DNA of 64,000 nucleotides. Source: Glycomyces salinus (GTDB lineage: Bacteria; Actinomycetota; Actinomycetes; Mycobacteriales; Micromonosporaceae). The stretch spans positions 1 to 64,000 of the forward strand of contig NZ_JAELXW010000017.1 in assembly GCF_016428645.1 (NCBI RefSeq), read 5' to 3'. The notes beneath the pieces are model-generated. The model searched no databases, was not told the DNA's origin, and was given only the letters and a program-made list of their open reading frames with translations. Numbering within the stretch: position 1 is the stretch's first letter; each line of letters opens with the position of its first letter. The position numbers and the translations under genes were made by a program. Of this stretch, positions 12,414-28,437 are shown one piece after another.

Positions 12414-12673
12414 CGGCAACTCCTTCTGTCGTCGTTCACGGTCGGTGAGAACGCTAGTCCACGGGTGTGACACTTGCGGCCGTCCGCGTTCGGTGTCCGT
12501 TCCGGGACGGGCTCCCGCCCACCAAGGAGGCGGCCGAACGAATCGGCCGCCGATCAATTGTCAAGTCTACTGCGTCCGAGCTCGGATTTCCCTATCTCTG
12601 CGCCTTGGCGTCGTCACAGTCGCGACGGGAGGCGAGGATGTGAACCCCCCTACGGACCTAGGGTCGTCCGGCT

Positions 12674-16442: not shown

Positions 16443-16768
16443 ATATAACTGTCGTCGTAGTCGTCGGTGCTGTGGAAACTGTGGAAAACCCTTCTTTTCG
16501 CAGCTAGGCATCGATATGAGGTTGTGGACGAGCTGTGGAGAACCTGTGGATGAATCGGCAGTTTATCCACAGCCCCCGACACCCGAGGCGCTTTCCACAT
16601 TCTGTCCACAGCTGTTTCCACAGCTTTTCCACAAGTTCTCCACAGGGTTGTACACAGGGAGAACGCGAGTTGAATTCTCACTTCGGCCCGTCGTCCACAC
16701 GCTGTCCACAGGCTTTCCACAGAAATCCGGGTTTATCCACAGCTTTTCCACAGGCTTGTCCACAGGGG
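16443..16768. other. Origin of replication oriC (DnaA-box cluster)
   Basis: The gap between dnaA and dnaN holds about 18 DnaA-box variants on both strands. Perfect TTATCCACA occurs at 16563-16571 and 16733-16741, and near matches such as TTTTCCACA (16625-16633) recur every 12-25 bp. An AT-richer patch (16410-16450, containing CTATAGATATAACT) next to dnaN may be the unwinding region. The position and box density match actinobacterial oriC. The remaining part of the gap (16374-16442) probably holds the dnaN promoter. Confidence 0.93.
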
Positions 16769-22598: not shown

Positions 22599-22612
22599 GT
22601 TCCACGTGAAAC
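22599..22612. other. Degenerate parS site 2
   Basis: GTTCCACGTGAAAC differs from parS at one base. It is the first part of composite repeat A. Confidence 0.6.
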
Positions 22613-22720
22613 CTCACCCTGTGGAAAACCCTGCAGCGGCCCGAATCTGTCGGACCAATGCCGTACTTTCGAGCCAAGGGGTCCCCCAGGGCGGACAAGT
22701 CGGCATATTTCCGCTTTCAC
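22599..22720 (+). repeat. Composite parS-linked repeat, copy A
   Basis: Order: parS-like site, CCCTGTGGA, CTGTCGGAC, then GCCGTACTTTCGAGCC and AAGGGGTCCCCC, GGCGGACAAGTCGGC and TTTCCGCTTTCAC. The block 22661-22720 matches copies B and C at most positions. Function unknown; see findings. Confidence 0.8.
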
Positions 22721-22887
22721 TTTCCGTCACCAGCGTTGCCGCACTCCGGATCGCCATGCGGCTCCCACTTGTCTTGGGAGAGAACCGAACCCAGTTCGGG
22801 ATTCCGATGAGCGCCCTCCGGAGACGCCGAGGTTCACGTTCTTGGGTTAATGTATGGCTCGTAAGGTTCTCCAAGCACGGGGTCGAT

Positions 22888-22901
22888 GTTTCACGTGAAA
22901 C
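22888..22901. other. parS site 3 (parA promoter region)
   Basis: Perfect GTTTCACGTGAAAC within the 20-bp palindrome 22885-22904 (GATG ... CATC), 16 bp upstream of the parA GTG. Confidence 0.95.
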
Positions 22902-22917
22902 ATCAGGCCCGTAATCT

Positions 22918-24348
22918 GTGGCGGTGAATGTGCGCGACCCCCTTCCTCCCGAAGATCGTGAACAACCGAAGTCCCTTGGCGGCGAAACCCCTGAACGCCG
23001 CATCAAGAACGTCCTCGACGCCGCTGTGAGCGAGGAGATTCCGACCAGTCGACGGCATCGCTATCGAGAAACTTCGGAGTCGCCGGGTGGCGCAGCCGAC
23101 CCCTATGCGCAGGCTGGGACAGAATCGGACACAGGTGAGACCGGTCCGGGCACGCGCCATGCGTCACTGAAGACCGAGCCGGTCCTCCGCAGCCAGAACG
23201 AGCGGTCCGAAGATAGCGGGGAACAGGACGGGATGCGCAAGTCCACATCACAACGGGGAAGGTCGGGGCGTCACACCGCACCGGAGGCGTCGGCCTCACG
23301 AGCGGGACGCCGGTCGGGGGAGAAGTCGGAGACGACGGCGAAGAAATCGCGTTCATTCACCTCGGAATCGAGCACGCCACGCAATGGATACGACGCCGAG
23401 ACAGAAGAACGGAGCTCCGAGATCCCCGCGCAGACCGATCCGCTAGCGGACGACCTTCCCTTGGCCCGAGAGGCGCAGCGCGCCGTCCGGGTCCTGAACC
23501 CGGCCGGCAACGTGTCCATGCCGCGCCCGTCGCGCCGCCGCGTGCTCGCCGTGGCGAACCAGAAGGGCGGGGTCGGCAAGACCACCAGTGCGGTCAACCT
23601 CGCGGTGGCGTTGGCGCTCCACGGCAACCGAGTGATGGTCATCGACCTCGACCCGCAGGGGAACGCCTCGACCGGGCTCGGAGTCGAGCACGGCGCGGGC
23701 GTCCCGAGCGTCTATGAGGCACTGGTCGACGGGACCCCGCTCGAAGAGGTCGCCCAACGCGTCGACGGCATCCCTTCGCTGCAATGCATTCCGGCGACCA
23801 TCGACCTGGCCGGCGCCGAAGTCGAGTTGGTGAACGTGGTTGCACGTGAAGCACGGCTGGAGAAGAGCATCGCGGCCTACGGCGGCGAAGTCGACTACAT
23901 CTTCATCGACTGCCCGCCCTCGCTCGGGCTTCTGACGGTCAACGCGCTCGTCGCCGCCGAAGAAGTCCTCATCCCGATTCAGTGCGAATACTACGCGCTG
24001 GAGGGCCTGGGCCAGTTGCTGCGGAACATCGAGCTCGTCAAGGCGCACCTGAATTCTCGCCTTCGAGTCTCTACGATTCTGCTGACGATGTACGACAAGC
24101 GGACCAAGCTCGCGGATCAGGTCGAGCAGGAAGTTCGCGGCCACTTCAACGAGATCGTGCTCGATTCGGTGGTTCCTCGGAGCGTCCGGGTTTCGGAAGC
24201 GCCCGGTTATGGGCAGTCGATCATGACCTATGATCCGGGCTCTCGAGGTGCGTCGAGTTACTTCGAGGCTGCCGAGGAGATCGCGCTTCGCGGCGTCAAG
24301 ATGAGCCCGGGGCGTCAGGGACGAGCGAACCAGAAGGGCGGGGAGTAG
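22918..24348 (+). CDS. parA: Chromosome partitioning ATPase ParA with long N-terminal extension
   Basis: 476 aa, versus about 260-330 for typical ParA. Residues about 1-200 are a low-complexity, charged, Ser/Thr/Glu/Arg-rich extension predicted disordered. The ATPase core follows: deviant Walker A NQKGGVGKTTSAVNLA at about 216, switch DLDPQGNASTGLG and IFIDCPPSLGLLTVNAL. ParA binds DNA nonspecifically with ATP and moves ParB-parS complexes. The GTG at 22918 has no RBS and a second GTG lies two codons later (22924); an internal start nearer the core cannot be excluded. parB follows after 3 bp. Confidence 0.93.
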   Translation: MAVNVRDPLPPEDREQPKSLGGETPERRIKNVLDAAVSEEIPTSRRHRYRETSESPGGAADPYAQAGTESDTGETGPGTRHASLKTEPVLRSQNERSEDSGEQDGMRKSTSQRGRSGRHTAPEASASRAGRRSGEKSETTAKKSRSFTSESSTPRNGYDAETEERSSEIPAQTDPLADDLPLAREAQRAVRVLNPAGNVSMPRPSRRRVLAVANQKGGVGKTTSAVNLAVALALHGNRVMVIDLDPQGNASTGLGVEHGAGVPSVYEALVDGTPLEEVAQRVDGIPSLQCIPATIDLAGAEVELVNVVAREARLEKSIAAYGGEVDYIFIDCPPSLGLLTVNALVAAEEVLIPIQCEYYALEGLGQLLRNIELVKAHLNSRLRVSTILLTMYDKRTKLADQVEQEVRGHFNEIVLDSVVPRSVRVSEAPGYGQSIMTYDPGSRGASSYFEAAEEIALRGVKMSPGRQGRANQKGGE

Positions 24349-24351
24349 TCG

Positions 24352-25428
24352 ATGGCAGCGGCGAAACGTGGGGGGCTGGGCCGAGGACTCGGAGCGCTTA
24401 TCCCGACCAGTCTGGCGGAGAGCGCGACGACCGAGACCGAGGAGGACGAGGAGTCGGCGGAGCCGACTCCGAGCGCGCCGCGACAGGCGGCTCCGGTCAA
24501 CGGCAGTGTTTCACGTGAAACACCTGCGGTCGCCACGATCGATGTTTCACGTGAAACGGAGTTGGAGGCCGACTCGCTCCAGGAGCTCGTGCCGGTACCC
24601 GGGGCGAGCTTCCGTCTGATCGATCTGTCCGAGATCGCGACCAACCCGAAGCAGCCGCGGCAGATCTTCGACGAGGAGCACCTGGCCGAGCTCGAGACCT
24701 CTCTCAACGAGGTGGGGATGCTTCAGCCGATCGCGGTGCGCGAACGGGGCACCTCGGACGGCCCGCGCTATGAACTGGTGATGGGCGAGCGCCGCCTCCG
24801 GGCGGCCACGACTCTCGGATGGGAGACCGTCCCGGCCATCGTGCGGCAGACCTCGGACGAGGAGCTGCTCCGCGAGGCGCTGTTGGAGAACATCCACCGG
24901 GTGGAGCTCAACCCGCTCGAAGAGGGCGCGGCGTATCAGCAACTCCTCGAAGAGTTCAACGTGACGCAGGAGGAGCTGGCCAAGCGGATCGGCCGCAGCC
25001 GCCCACAGATCTCCAACACGATCCGACTGCTGAGCCTCCCGGGAACCGTGCAGACGAAGGTGGCCGCCGGGGTCCTCACCGCGGGCCACGCTCGCGCGCT
25101 GCTGGGCCTCGACAGCAGCGACACGCAAGAGCACATCGCCGAGCGGATCATCAGCGAGGGCCTGTCGGTGCGAAGCACCGAGGAACTCGTGACGGCCTGC
25201 CGCCTGGAGGAGACGCCGGAGCCCGACGACCCGAAGGGGACCGGATCGAAGACGGCGGCGAAGGACCGCATCAAGGCTCCCGGACTCGAGGAGTTGAAGG
25301 AGCGGCTCTCGGACCACTTCGAAACGAAAGTGTCGGTCACCTGGGGCCGGAAGAAGGGCAAGATCGTGATCGAATTCGGCTCCCTCTCCGACCTCGACCG
25401 GATCGTGGAGCAGATCGGCATCGACTGA
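24352..25428 (+). CDS. parB: Chromosome partitioning protein ParB
   Basis: 358 aa, GGGGAG upstream of ATG 24352. The N-terminus RGGLGRGLGALIP is the ParA-interacting motif. The CTPase/N domain has box motif VMGERRLRAATTLG (GERRLRA) with the ENIHRVELNPLEEG stretch, and the HTH follows (EELAKRIGRSRPQISNTIRLL). The C-terminal dimerisation domain ends the protein. ParB loads as a clamp at parS. Two parS sites lie inside its own N-terminal coding region, both read as VSRET. The linker (about 25-80) is acidic. Confidence 0.96.
   Translation: MAAAKRGGLGRGLGALIPTSLAESATTETEEDEESAEPTPSAPRQAAPVNGSVSRETPAVATIDVSRETELEADSLQELVPVPGASFRLIDLSEIATNPKQPRQIFDEEHLAELETSLNEVGMLQPIAVRERGTSDGPRYELVMGERRLRAATTLGWETVPAIVRQTSDEELLREALLENIHRVELNPLEEGAAYQQLLEEFNVTQEELAKRIGRSRPQISNTIRLLSLPGTVQTKVAAGVLTAGHARALLGLDSSDTQEHIAERIISEGLSVRSTEELVTACRLEETPEPDDPKGTGSKTAAKDRIKAPGLEELKERLSDHFETKVSVTWGRKKGKIVIEFGSLSDLDRIVEQIGID
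24508..24521. other. parS site 4 (inside parB)
   Basis: Perfect GTTTCACGTGAAAC in the parB coding frame; flanks extend the palindrome to 18 bp (24506-24523). Confidence 0.95.
24544..24557. other. parS site 5 (inside parB)
   Basis: Perfect GTTTCACGTGAAAC, 36 bp after site 4 and in the same reading frame (VSRET). Confidence 0.95.
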
Positions 25429-25473
25429 TCCACTACCACCGAACGCACCGGCGCTCGCTGGACTCCTCGAAAT

Positions 25474-25592
25474 GTGAAAGCGGAAATTTGCCGACTTGTC
25501 CGCCCCGGGGGACCCCTTGGCTCAAAAGTACGGCGGGGGTGTGACAAGGCGGGGGCAGCGGCGAGTCATCCACAGGGTGTTTCACGTGAAAC
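25474..25592 (-). repeat. Composite parS-linked repeat, copy B
   Basis: Read on the minus strand from 25592: perfect parS (25579-25592), CCCTGTGGA, then GCCGTACTTTTGAGCC, AAGGGGTCCCCC, GGCGGACAAGTCGGC and TTTCCGCTTTCAC. Same order and nearly the same spacing as copy A (119 versus 122 bp). Confidence 0.8.
25579..25592. other. parS site 6
   Basis: Perfect GTTTCACGTGAAAC at the start of composite repeat B. Confidence 0.95.
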
Positions 25593-25782
25593 AGTATGGA
25601 GCGAGAACCGACGTGGTTCGCGCTCCTGTCGTGGGGGCCGCGGCTGGCCGGGGCCGAGGACCGGACTCTTGGCGGACGCCATCTGTCGGATCATCGGACG
25701 GATGATTCGGAGCGCATCAGGTTGCTGGCCGGGAGAGATGCGGTCGATCGGAGACCGGCAGATTCGAATACGGGGCTGGACG

Positions 25783-25822
25783 AGCTTCGGGCGGTGTTTC
25801 ACGTGAAACACCGCCCGAAGCT
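25783..25822. repeat. Perfect 40-bp palindrome with parS site 7 at its centre
   Basis: AGCTTCGGGCGGTGTTTCAC is followed directly by its own reverse complement. The parS 14-mer is 25796-25809. It lies 31 bp from the stop of the convergent acetyltransferase gene, so it may also act as a terminator hairpin. Confidence 0.9.
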
Positions 25823-25852
25823 TCTTATCGGCTGGATAGCTGGCTTATGTGA

Positions 25853-26428
25853 TCAGACGAGCTCGCGCCACATGATGATGTCGTCGCGGTAGTCGTCGTC
25901 GGCCACGCGCACCGCGCGCGGCAGTCGGCCTACCTCGGTGAATCCGTGGCGGCGGTAGAACGCGTCCGCTCCGGTTCCCGAGCGAACCTTGAGGCTCAGC
26001 GCCTCGAGCTTCAATTCCTCGCGCGCCACCCGGTCAACGGCTGCCAGGAGCTTTCCGCCAACGCCGCTTCCCTGGCGTTCCGGGTCGACCTGGACGTGGC
26101 GGACGGTTCGCCATCCCTGCCTCGGCGGGCTGTCGTTTGATGTGAGAACACACCAAGCGACAATGGCGGCTCCTTCCTTTAGAGCGACCAGGGTGTCAGT
26201 CTGGTCGATCACGCGCGCGAGAATGGAAACGGTGTGAGGACGGACCTCTTCGAGGTTCACCGGCGGGACGAACCCGACGGAACCGCCGGCGTTCGTAACC
26301 CGTACCCAGAGATAACTGAGTTCATCGACGAGCGCGGCGGTGACCGGCGGGTCCACCAGCACTGAGGTTTCGTCGCCCTTGCCGGACGACGCCTCTGGTG
26401 TGGAACTGTCAGTCACTGTTGCTTGCAC
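25853..26428 (-). CDS. GNAT-family N-acetyltransferase
   Basis: 191 aa. Acetyl-CoA binding motif VDPERQGSGVGGKLL (R-x-x-G-x-G/A) at about 116-130, preceded by the beta-strand VRHVQ. The C-terminal strand has DAFYRRHGFTEVGR, the usual GNAT tail. Cytosolic; acceptor substrate unknown. Start at ATG 26428. It converges on parB and ends beside the parS palindrome. Confidence 0.85.
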   Translation of the reverse strand: MQATVTDSSTPEASSGKGDETSVLVDPPVTAALVDELSYLWVRVTNAGGSVGFVPPVNLEEVRPHTVSILARVIDQTDTLVALKEGAAIVAWCVLTSNDSPPRQGWRTVRHVQVDPERQGSGVGGKLLAAVDRVAREELKLEALSLKVRSGTGADAFYRRHGFTEVGRLPRAVRVADDDYRDDIIMWRELV

Positions 26429-26624
26429 GCCTACCAGCTTGCCTCATGCCCGGGGTCTCCCGACAGCCGCTTCCCGCGATATGGGCGCACGTCACTATCG
26501 GCTTTCTATGGGGGAATCCGACCGGGATGTGCATCAATCCGGTCCTCTGTCGACGGTGTCGCTACGGCACGGCACGCAAGCGCCACCAAAAAGGGGGATT
26601 CCGGTGGTTTCCAGGCTCGCCTCG

Positions 26625-27380
26625 ATGAGGTACCTTTCGGAGGTGGCATCAGCGAGTACCCCCGGCCAAAGTCCCAAGCCAGGTCTAGCGAACCAACAGC
26701 AGCCGCACAACCGACGCAACGGTGGCTCAGATTCCCCGCTGCCCGCCTTCGTCGACTGGCCCGCGTTCCCCTTCGAGGGGGAGATGAATCTCAAGCCGCT
26801 GCAGGAGCCGGTCGGCACCGAGCCCCCGCGGCGTGGCGACCGGCAGGAGCAGTGCAGTTCCTGCCATACCCCCGACAGCGCCTATCTGTGGACCGACGAG
26901 CGCTGGCGCCTCAAGAGCCCGCCCTCGCCCAGCGGGCTCCCGGTCGTGGTGATCCTGGAGCCCCGGGCGCACCTCGACCTCGGTGATCTCTCGACCATGC
27001 ACGCCGCCGAGCTCGGTGTGCTGACCGTGCGCCTGGAACGGGCGATCCGGTCCCTGGAGTCCGTGGCGCAGGTGCACGTCAACCGCTGGGGTGACGGGAC
27101 CGCGCACCTGCAGATGTGGTTCCTGGCCCGGCCGAAGGGCTACCTCCAATTGCGGGGGCCGTTCATGACCATGTGGGACGAGATCCTGCCCGCGGTCGAC
27201 GAGCACGAGTGGCGGATGAACCTGGAGTACATCTCGGCCTGGCTCTCCGATGATTTAGAGCGAACCCCGAAGGGCCGAGACCCGAGCGGCACCGATGTTT
27301 CACGTGAAACCGCGAGATTCTTGAGATCGGCCTGTGGACATCGCCGCCGCCGGACCTGGCCTGTCGGACCCCCGACGTAG
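26625..27380 (+). CDS. HIT-like protein (histidine-triad-type hydrolase/transferase)
   Basis: 251 aa from ATG 26625; GTG 26643 has a better RBS (CGGAG) and may be the true start. Residues about 85-100 show a CSSCHTPDSAYLW metal-binding-like pair. The HIT-type segment is QVHVNRWGDGTAHLQMWFLARP, shown here in parts as VHVNRWGDGTAHLQMW; the triad is imperfect (H-x-N and H-L-Q). The C-terminal about 30 residues (TDVSRETARFL onwards) are encoded by composite repeat C and are likely not part of the original fold. Located near parAB in many actinobacteria; function unknown. Confidence 0.65.
   Translation: MRYLSEVASASTPGQSPKPGLANQQQPHNRRNGGSDSPLPAFVDWPAFPFEGEMNLKPLQEPVGTEPPRRGDRQEQCSSCHTPDSAYLWTDERWRLKSPPSPSGLPVVVILEPRAHLDLGDLSTMHAAELGVLTVRLERAIRSLESVAQVHVNRWGDGTAHLQMWFLARPKGYLQLRGPFMTMWDEILPAVDEHEWRMNLEYISAWLSDDLERTPKGRDPSGTDVSRETARFLRSACGHRRRRTWPVGPPT
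27297..27310. other. parS site 8 (3' end of HIT-like gene)
   Basis: Perfect GTTTCACGTGAAAC read as VSRET in the HIT-like gene and forming the start of composite repeat C. Confidence 0.95.
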
Positions 27381-27434
27381 TTTCGAGCCAAGGGGTCCCC
27401 CTGGCGGGACAAGTCGGTATATTTCGGCTTTCAC
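27297..27434 (+). repeat. Composite parS-linked repeat, copy C
   Basis: Same order as copies A and B: parS, CCTGTGGA, CTGTCGGAC, then TTTCGAGCC, AAGGGGTCCCCC, GACAAGTCGG and the pyrimidine-rich GGCTTTCAC. It is 138 bp, longer than A and B mainly through about 18 extra bases between parS and CCTGTGGA, and it overlaps the end of the HIT-like gene. Confidence 0.75.
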
Positions 27435-27465: not shown

Positions 27466-28437
27466 CTAGGAGCGCGCCAGTGCGAGGCGGACCATCCTGG
27501 TCAGGGTCTCGCCGGTGTCCATGCCCGCCGCTTCGATCGCCATCGGCAGCAGCGAGGTCTCGGTCATCCCCGGGGCGACGTTCGCCTCCAGGATCTGGAT
27601 GGTTCCGGCGTCGTCGACCATGAGATCGACCCGCGAGATGTCGCGCAGCCCCAGCGTCTCGTGGGCGGCCACCGCGATCTCGGCGACCCGGTCCGCCGCG
27701 GCCGCGTCCAGGTCGGCCGGGACCGTCCAGCGGGTCGCGCCCGGGTTGTAGCGGGCCGCGTAGTCGTAGTCGCCCAGCAGCGGCGTGATCTCGACCGGAG
27801 GCAGCGCCGTCGGGCCCTCGCCCAGGTCGACCACGCCCACGGCGATGTCGCGCCCGTCGACGAACGACTCGACCAGGGCCTCGTCGCTGTAGGAGAAGCA
27901 GCCCATCATCGCCGACGGGAAGTCGTCCTCCTTGCGCACCGACTGCACGCCCAGCCCCGAACCGCCCGAGTTGGGCTTGACGACCAGCGGCAGCCCCATC
28001 TTCGCGGCGATCCGGTCCAAGAGCTTGCGCGCCCCGAAGTCCGAGAACGCCTGGCGCGGCATGACCGTCCAGTCCGCCGTCGGCAGTCCCGCCGACCGCA
28101 GCAGGTCCTTGGCCGCGGACTTGTTCCAGGCTCGCCTGGCTCCCACCGAGTCCGTGCCCACGAACGGGACGCCCGCCAGTTCGAGCACGCTCCGCAGCGA
28201 GCCGTCCTCACCCGGGGCACCGTGGACCAGCGGGAACACCACGTCCGGCGGAAAATCCTGGAGCGTCGGCAGCAGGTCCCCGTCCAGGTCGCGGATCTCG
28301 CAGGACATGCCCTGGCGCTGCAGCGCGGCCGCGACCCGGCGACCGGACTTGAGGGACACCTCGTGCTCGTACGACATGCCCCCGGCGAGGATCAGGACCC
28401 GCAGGTCCGAGGCTGCCGCGCCGCCCGATGCGCTCAT
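27466..28437 (-). CDS. ddl: D-alanine--D-alanine ligase
   Basis: 323 aa. ATP-grasp enzyme making the D-Ala-D-Ala dipeptide of peptidoglycan. Motifs: N-terminal LILAGGMSYEHEVSLKSG, substrate loop HGAPGEDGSLRSVLELAG, ATP loop VVKPNSGGSGLGVQSV and the Mg site ILEANVAPGMTETSLLP (normally N-x-x-PGxT). Shorter than many Ddl (about 350-370). Its start overlaps the aminotransferase stop (ATGA), so the pair is coupled. Confidence 0.93.
   Translation of the reverse strand: MSASGGAAASDLRVLILAGGMSYEHEVSLKSGRRVAAALQRQGMSCEIRDLDGDLLPTLQDFPPDVVFPLVHGAPGEDGSLRSVLELAGVPFVGTDSVGARRAWNKSAAKDLLRSAGLPTADWTVMPRQAFSDFGARKLLDRIAAKMGLPLVVKPNSGGSGLGVQSVRKEDDFPSAMMGCFSYSDEALVESFVDGRDIAVGVVDLGEGPTALPPVEITPLLGDYDYAARYNPGATRWTVPADLDAAAADRVAEIAVAAHETLGLRDISRVDLMVDDAGTIQILEANVAPGMTETSLLPMAIEAAGMDTGETLTRMVRLALARS

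Follow-up and report, generated by a model that had tools for sequence, protein, structure and literature searches.

What is a conserved block doing three times around the partition genes parA and parB of Glycomyces salinus, each time beside a parS site? The window examined is a stretch of 64,000 nucleotides (assembly GCF_016428645.1, contig NZ_JAELXW010000017.1, positions 1 to 64,000), and the blocks, each of ~75 bp, lie at 22646-22720 (copy A), 25548-25474 on the minus strand (copy B) and 27360-27434 (copy C). They are 84-87% identical (A-B 0.87, A-C 0.85, B-C 0.84), and a search with unit C returned unit A at E = 3.9e-19 and unit B at E = 1.5e-18, a similarity beyond chance. The block is a dispersed, interspersed intergenic element of Glycomyces, of which the par locus holds three copies. 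With modest confidence, we read each copy as a LexA-independent promoter of the DNA-damage type, with the layout of the RecA-NDp promoters, fused to a conserved initially transcribed segment that starts with AGGGGTCCC; copy A would feed parAB, and copies B and C would be transcribed antisense to their neighbors.

The search for further copies in relatives that the original prediction had called for was productive. A sequence-only profile built from 15 copies found matches in 20 of 22 genomes of the genus, at 1-31 per genome, these counts being lower bounds since 150 candidates were scored per genome; no match was found by this search in genomes G003 and G021. The same search across 200 genomes of the order gave eight with a match, five of Glycomyces and three of a family labeled f15. 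An exact pattern neutral with respect to the tail of the element was present in 26 Glycomyces stretches and in one stretch each of Kibdelosporangium and Actinosynnema, both Pseudonocardiaceae, and of Saccharothrix, which we take to be Pseudonocardiaceae as well, so that f15 is probably this family. In one f15 genus, a related form (up to three mismatches) occurs at 12 places in 2 of 16 genomes and the reversed control nowhere; TGTGGA lies a short way upstream of 11 of these 12 copies, and the downstream gene is opposing for 10 of the 11 that have a called one. Within the 5.37-Mb assembly of the window's genome, the search with unit C gave no match besides A and B at E <= 0.001, full-length blocks with the tail class of the window copies were found at the par locus only, and the extra weaker matches in profile searches comprise the head alone. 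From the 329 matches summed over genomes, 122 Glycomyces copies were fetched from the better-scoring places and pooled (128 with six copies from the other family, which are excluded from the 122). No paper on such a Glycomyces repeat turned up in the literature listings searched, which does not prove that none exists.

The AGGGG anchor is present in 115 of the 128 copies, and the 113 copies anchored in the profile are conserved from approximately -29 to +51, with conservation dropping outside these limits. The block predicted as 60 bp is thus conserved as proposed and is larger: it starts at TGTC, runs to ~51 nt beyond the A of AGGGG and measures about 80 bp. The head reads TGTCRNAC-N8-TANNNT. 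Among the 121 of the 122 pooled copies that entered the head count, TGTC is intact in 106 and R in 118, and TANNNT stands at the exact spacing in 113 and shifted by one base to either side in none, while the bases within TANNNT vary among copies. In 111 of 117 copies with a core, AGGGG starts 28 or 29 nt after the start of TGTC, placing its A 6-7 nt past the -10 motif. Beyond the core there are at least two tail classes, the AT-rich tail of the window copies and one marked by GGGACTACCTGCTTCGGCGTGCC, common in G010 and present in three copies in the window's genome; the profile for the latter class was built partly from several of the G010 and window-genome copies that it matched, including those three. 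The motif AAGGGGTCCCCC occurs exactly three times in the window and is by itself marginal against chance, as three or more matches with up to one mismatch arose in 6 of 100 shuffles. The extended head TGTCRNACC-N7-TANNNT occurs four times against 0.01 expected, namely in A, B and C and, without the rest of the element, at 12451-12472 (minus strand), directly upstream of gyrB, a gene named by resemblance.

The placement of the element follows a pattern. Neighboring genes were called, in the other family as well, with a codon-usage caller trained on ten open reading frames of the window rather than taken from annotation. Convergent genes flank 85 of the 128 copies; another 23 lie between tandem genes with the downstream gene opposing and 8 between tandem genes in the gene direction, the remainder being divergent (6), without a called neighbor (4) or inside a called gene (2). 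When collapsed to 35 distinct Glycomyces sites, 22 are convergent, 7 tandem-opposing, 2 tandem-codirectional and 4 divergent, giving an opposing downstream gene at 29 of 35 sites (p ~ 1e-4), although the tandem bias by itself (7 vs 2) is not significant (p = 0.18). Copy A, in the spacer between rsmG and parA and directed at the start of parA, belongs to the minority type; copy B, in the spacer between parB and a GNAT gene, is directed into the 3' end of parB, and copy C stands just short of the 3' end of ddl, which opposes it from the minus strand (27466-28437). The same gene borders are occupied in different species, often at near-identical spacing. Across 12 site groups the elements are 0.67-0.85 identical. 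In 10 of 11 groups the element is more conserved than the spacer upstream, the odd one out having 0.67 vs 0.72, and for the spacer downstream the same holds in 7 of 8, with 0.76 vs 0.76 in the other. The shared borders, together with an identity above that of the flanking spacers, indicate that the copies are kept by selection and not by recent copying.

It is the head that points to a promoter. The LexA-independent damage promoters (RecA-NDp) of mycobacteria are given the consensus tTGTCRgtg-8nt-TannnT in PMC5656591, and PMC11804915 describes PafB as binding the -26 motif and PafBC as a sigma adaptation factor activated by single-stranded DNA (ssDNA). The head of the element has this layout, with TGTCR, the 8-nt spacing and TANNNT all agreeing. 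In the window it comprises TGTCGGACC as a -26 type motif with TACTTT as a -10 type motif in copy A (22648-22669), TGTCACACC with TACTTT in copy B (25525-25546, minus strand) and TGTCGGACC with TAGTTT in copy C (27362-27383). The same motif stands at leaderless gene starts: TGTCRNACC-N7-TANNNT followed by ATG after 4-8 nt gave 99 matches in 20 of 22 genomes, and the reversed pattern gave none. Among 30 such loci fetched, 24 open a frame of at least 110 codons, and the 19 genes scanned against Pfam include two AlkZ-like proteins, one each of a PD-(D/E)XK nuclease, an RNase_T exonuclease, MgsA/RarA, a YgjP-like protein and DinB_2, and four of Glyoxalase_6 (PF18029). The gtg form of the motif was found before SRAP in the window's genome. 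The motif at leaderless starts is missing from the same two genomes as the element, G003 and G021; two random empty pairs would coincide once in 231. A stricter pattern ending in TANNNTTG gave six matches in the window's genome (reversed control none). One is copy B, one an element of the second tail class (L051) and one a relict next to a thiolase gene; the other three precede TnpB genes or remnants (L098 assigned by Pfam, L100 by overlap with a TnpB match, L099 by resemblance). At these three TnpB loci the start codon lies 7 nt past the -10, that is, where the elements place the A of AGGGG.

From this layout, an ssDNA-sensing activator of the WYL family, PafBC or a relative, would recruit the housekeeping RNA polymerase to the head, and transcription would start at the A of AGGGGTCCC, predicted at 22677 for copy A (with the conserved downstream segment reaching to 22720), at 25517 on the minus strand for copy B and at 27391 for copy C. 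Copy A would add damage-inducible transcription to parAB, copies B and C would each give a short RNA running antisense into the 3' end of a neighboring gene, parB for B and ddl for C, and most copies elsewhere would likewise run antisense at other gene ends. These three precise starts make the reading testable. Another WYL activator, SiwR, likewise acting at -26, is linked to DinB_2 and PF18029 genes in PMC10693628, and both families are among the genes that carry the head here; unlike the Glycomyces head, the SiwR site described there is a 19-bp imperfect palindrome.

Several observations weigh against this promoter assignment. The element reads NACC where the published consensus has gtg, letters that are lower case, and hence weak, in the consensus as printed in PMC5656591, and it differs from the mycobacterial promoters further in its conserved transcribed segment of ~50 bp, whereas a plain promoter needs no sequence conserved to +51, and in lying mostly against the 3' ends of opposing genes and not before coding sequences. 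As with those promoters, some Glycomyces repair genes carry the motif, judged by its position only, and so do genes of other kinds. Among the scanned leaderless genes, 5 of 19 fall in families without a plain damage link (RibD_C, GNAT, ABC, AraC, hydrolase) and 3 of 19 have no Pfam match; the frame opened is short at 6 of the 30 fetched loci, and the 99 matches include at least one (G012:C23:149101) that is itself an element match. Element counts and leaderless-motif counts are only weakly correlated over the 22 genomes (Spearman 0.31, p = 0.16), two tandem arrays of element-like units (L259 and L260) read CANNNT in place of TANNNT, and the excess of convergent over divergent sites (22 vs 4) would also fit insertions that avoid gene starts.

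Given the position of the three copies, we weighed explanations centered on parS and on the par region. Each unit in the window does contain the predicted parts in the predicted order, with parS at 22599-22612 (GTTCCACGTGAAAC, one mismatch), 25579-25592 and 27297-27310, and TGTGGA, a DnaA-box-like motif, at 22620-22625, 25569-25574 (minus strand) and 27333-27338, which is 28 (A), 28 (B) and 29 nt (C) upstream of TGTC (background ~0.012 per 60 nt). The region is also a hotspot, best judged by the tail-neutral pattern because the R1 profile was built from window-seeded matches: 13 of 32 tail-neutral Glycomyces matches fall in 8-kb stretches containing parS. The idea of a parS cassette, mobile or duplicated, with a helping role in segregation would account for the 18 of 122 pooled copies with a parS within 300 bp (36-186 bp away), all of them at par-neighborhood sites. 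It is contradicted by the other 104, which have no parS within that distance (some fetched stretches end at contig ends, beyond which a parS would be missed), by the poor conservation of the stretch between parS and block (A-B 0.63, A-C 0.56, B-C 0.51) and by most orthologues of unit C, in which the block has its parS on the opposite side, so we consider it scarcely credible. Conversely, parS sites persist around parB in G003, G005 and G013, where no block lies within 1.5 kb of that gene, while G001 has a single copy there; empty parB-GNAT spacers are too diverged to show any junction. What the element shares with parABS centromere sites is thus adjacency at the par locus, and it differs from them in that most copies lack a nearby parS and parS persists without the block. 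The likeness of the par copies probably has another source. The 26 par-neighborhood copies occupy four sites (rsmG-parA, parB-GNAT, before the ddl end, and beside a thioredoxin-like gene; locus L006 of G016, whose neighbors are other genes, is not counted), and most genomes that have them carry two or three around parABS. Within a genome they are 0.794 identical on average (14 pairs), compared to 0.714 for the same site between genomes (86 pairs) and 0.702 for different sites, again between genomes (225 pairs); the within-genome excess has a permutation p of 5e-4, in a test that controls for site labels and for no further phylogeny. Since likeness within a genome exceeds likeness at the same site between genomes, A, B and C probably resemble each other through within-genome homogenization or a shared factor and not through duplication of a parS unit. 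This likeness, the hotspot and the TGTGGA, which keeps its distance in A, B and C and recurs in the other family (11 of 12 copies), would also suit a double-stranded protein-binding site that organizes the origin and par region through DnaA, a ParB-associated or a nucleoid protein, the promoter-like head being incidental. We regard such a site as improbable, given the 104 copies far from parS, the three genomes without a copy near parB, the rarity of TGTGGA in Glycomyces, where 5 of 121 copies have it within 60 nt upstream, and a head spacing and leaderless genes that suit a promoter. Of the segregation site and the coupling of parS to a DnaA-box-like motif originally proposed, what stands is a conserved, probably functional site for which the par region is a hotspot, and a fixed spacing of the TGTGGA in the window copies; few Glycomyces copies have that motif.

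The remaining explanations look to RNA structure and to mobility. A structured RNA family on either strand, for instance in the 3' untranslated region of the neighboring gene, would fit the tail lying within tens of bases of the opposite gene's stop at many sites, and the tail (+9 to +52) does fold somewhat better than shuffled sequence (mean z -1.2). That value is the same on both strands, however, and is reached by the upstream control (z -1.1 to -1.25; downstream -0.6 to -0.7), and folding energy was set aside as evidence for RNA. Covariation is weak and mixed: none of 8 predicted pairs in the 15-copy alignment is compensatory, covariation in fixed register being weak or absent; among 12 site groups, compensatory pairs are absent from 9 and number 1-5 in 3; and two stems picked by eye, with 83% and 81% of their cells paired, show compensatory changes at 2 and 1 of their 6 pairs, their covariation scores being attained in 35 and 157 of 500 shuffles and also with slid partners. 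Rfam at its gathering score gave three tRNAs in the window and no match to the element. A known Rfam family was rejected on this ground, and the structured RNA originally suggested is, in our view, very improbable. A likelier alternative, though still a doubtful one, is that the copies are remnants of a non-autonomous mobile element, perhaps derived from TnpB transposons, that now persist at the ends of genes in the role of terminators, insulators or DNA-structural sites. Repetitive extragenic palindromic sequences and bacterial interspersed mosaic elements (REP/BIME) and miniature inverted-repeat transposable elements (MITE) are interspersed repeats that are short, intergenic and multicopy. 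The Glycomyces elements share these properties and, like them, are enriched between convergent genes; tandem arrays occur, the second tail class is common mainly in one species, the tails hold palindromic stretches, and the head is common to some TnpB genes. They differ from such repeats in having no transposase link that we found and a constrained sequence with promoter layout, the sequence being conserved and not the shape alone. The core AGGGG(T/C)CCC is absent from all 30 TnpB loci, so a tail derived from such loci was rejected, and the near-constant spacing to neighboring stop codons across species at many site groups argues against recent movement. No terminal inverted repeats were noticed, no dedicated search for them having been made. 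A phage collection gave no match and plasmids gave six short ones (E 0.3-0.9), none convincing, and a plasmid or phage origin was rejected. As a separate observation, the window's genome has 22 TnpB matches (OrfB_IS605, PF01385), the most among the 22 genus genomes searched. The tandem arrays comprise three element-like units with a period of ~129 bp in L259 (G012:C12) and two with one of 109 bp in L260 (G012:C31), where an AlkZ-like gene with an intact head lies 3' of the two units, an arrangement in keeping with the promoter reading.

Around the three units, Pfam identified rsmG (GidB), parA, parB, the GNAT gene and ddl. No Pfam family matched the gene lying between the last two, which is HIT-like by resemblance only; rsmI, thioredoxin and thiolase are likewise named by resemblance and not by a family search. 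The parB-GNAT spacer holds, at 25781-25825, a very strong hairpin of 18-19 bp (z -6.7 on one strand and -9.1 on the other) whose loop-proximal stem is a parS, as if a terminator stem served as parS too; alignment finds this arrangement in several other Glycomyces. A palindrome, TCACTCGAACGAGTGA or a variant, lies between the parS hairpin and the parB-side element in several species (L005, L023, L028, L030, L042). Two perfect parS sites lie inside the parB coding sequence, at 24508 and 24544, 36 bp apart, and equally spaced pairs are present in the parB loci of four other Glycomyces. In G005 (L231), a long GCCTCGC tandem run lies ~400 nt past the parB stop. A dense cluster of TCCACA/TGTGGA motifs at 16471-16760 adjoins dnaA and is probably oriC.

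The promoter class to which we assign the head is already known from repair genes. Here it occurs as stand-alone, selectively kept units, up to about thirty per genome, with a conserved transcribed segment and mostly facing the ends of other genes. If these units fire upon damage, the LexA-independent damage response would gain a new layer, and the segregation genes would be tied directly to DNA damage. A wider proposal, which we put forward tentatively and think rather unlikely, is that Glycomyces, and certain members of a second family in the order, possess a set of non-coding units that lie at the 3' ends of genes throughout the genome and are transcribed in response to damage, those at the par locus forming a co-evolving cluster. 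Through this set, an ssDNA-sensing WYL activator would couple replication damage directly to the expression of segregation genes.

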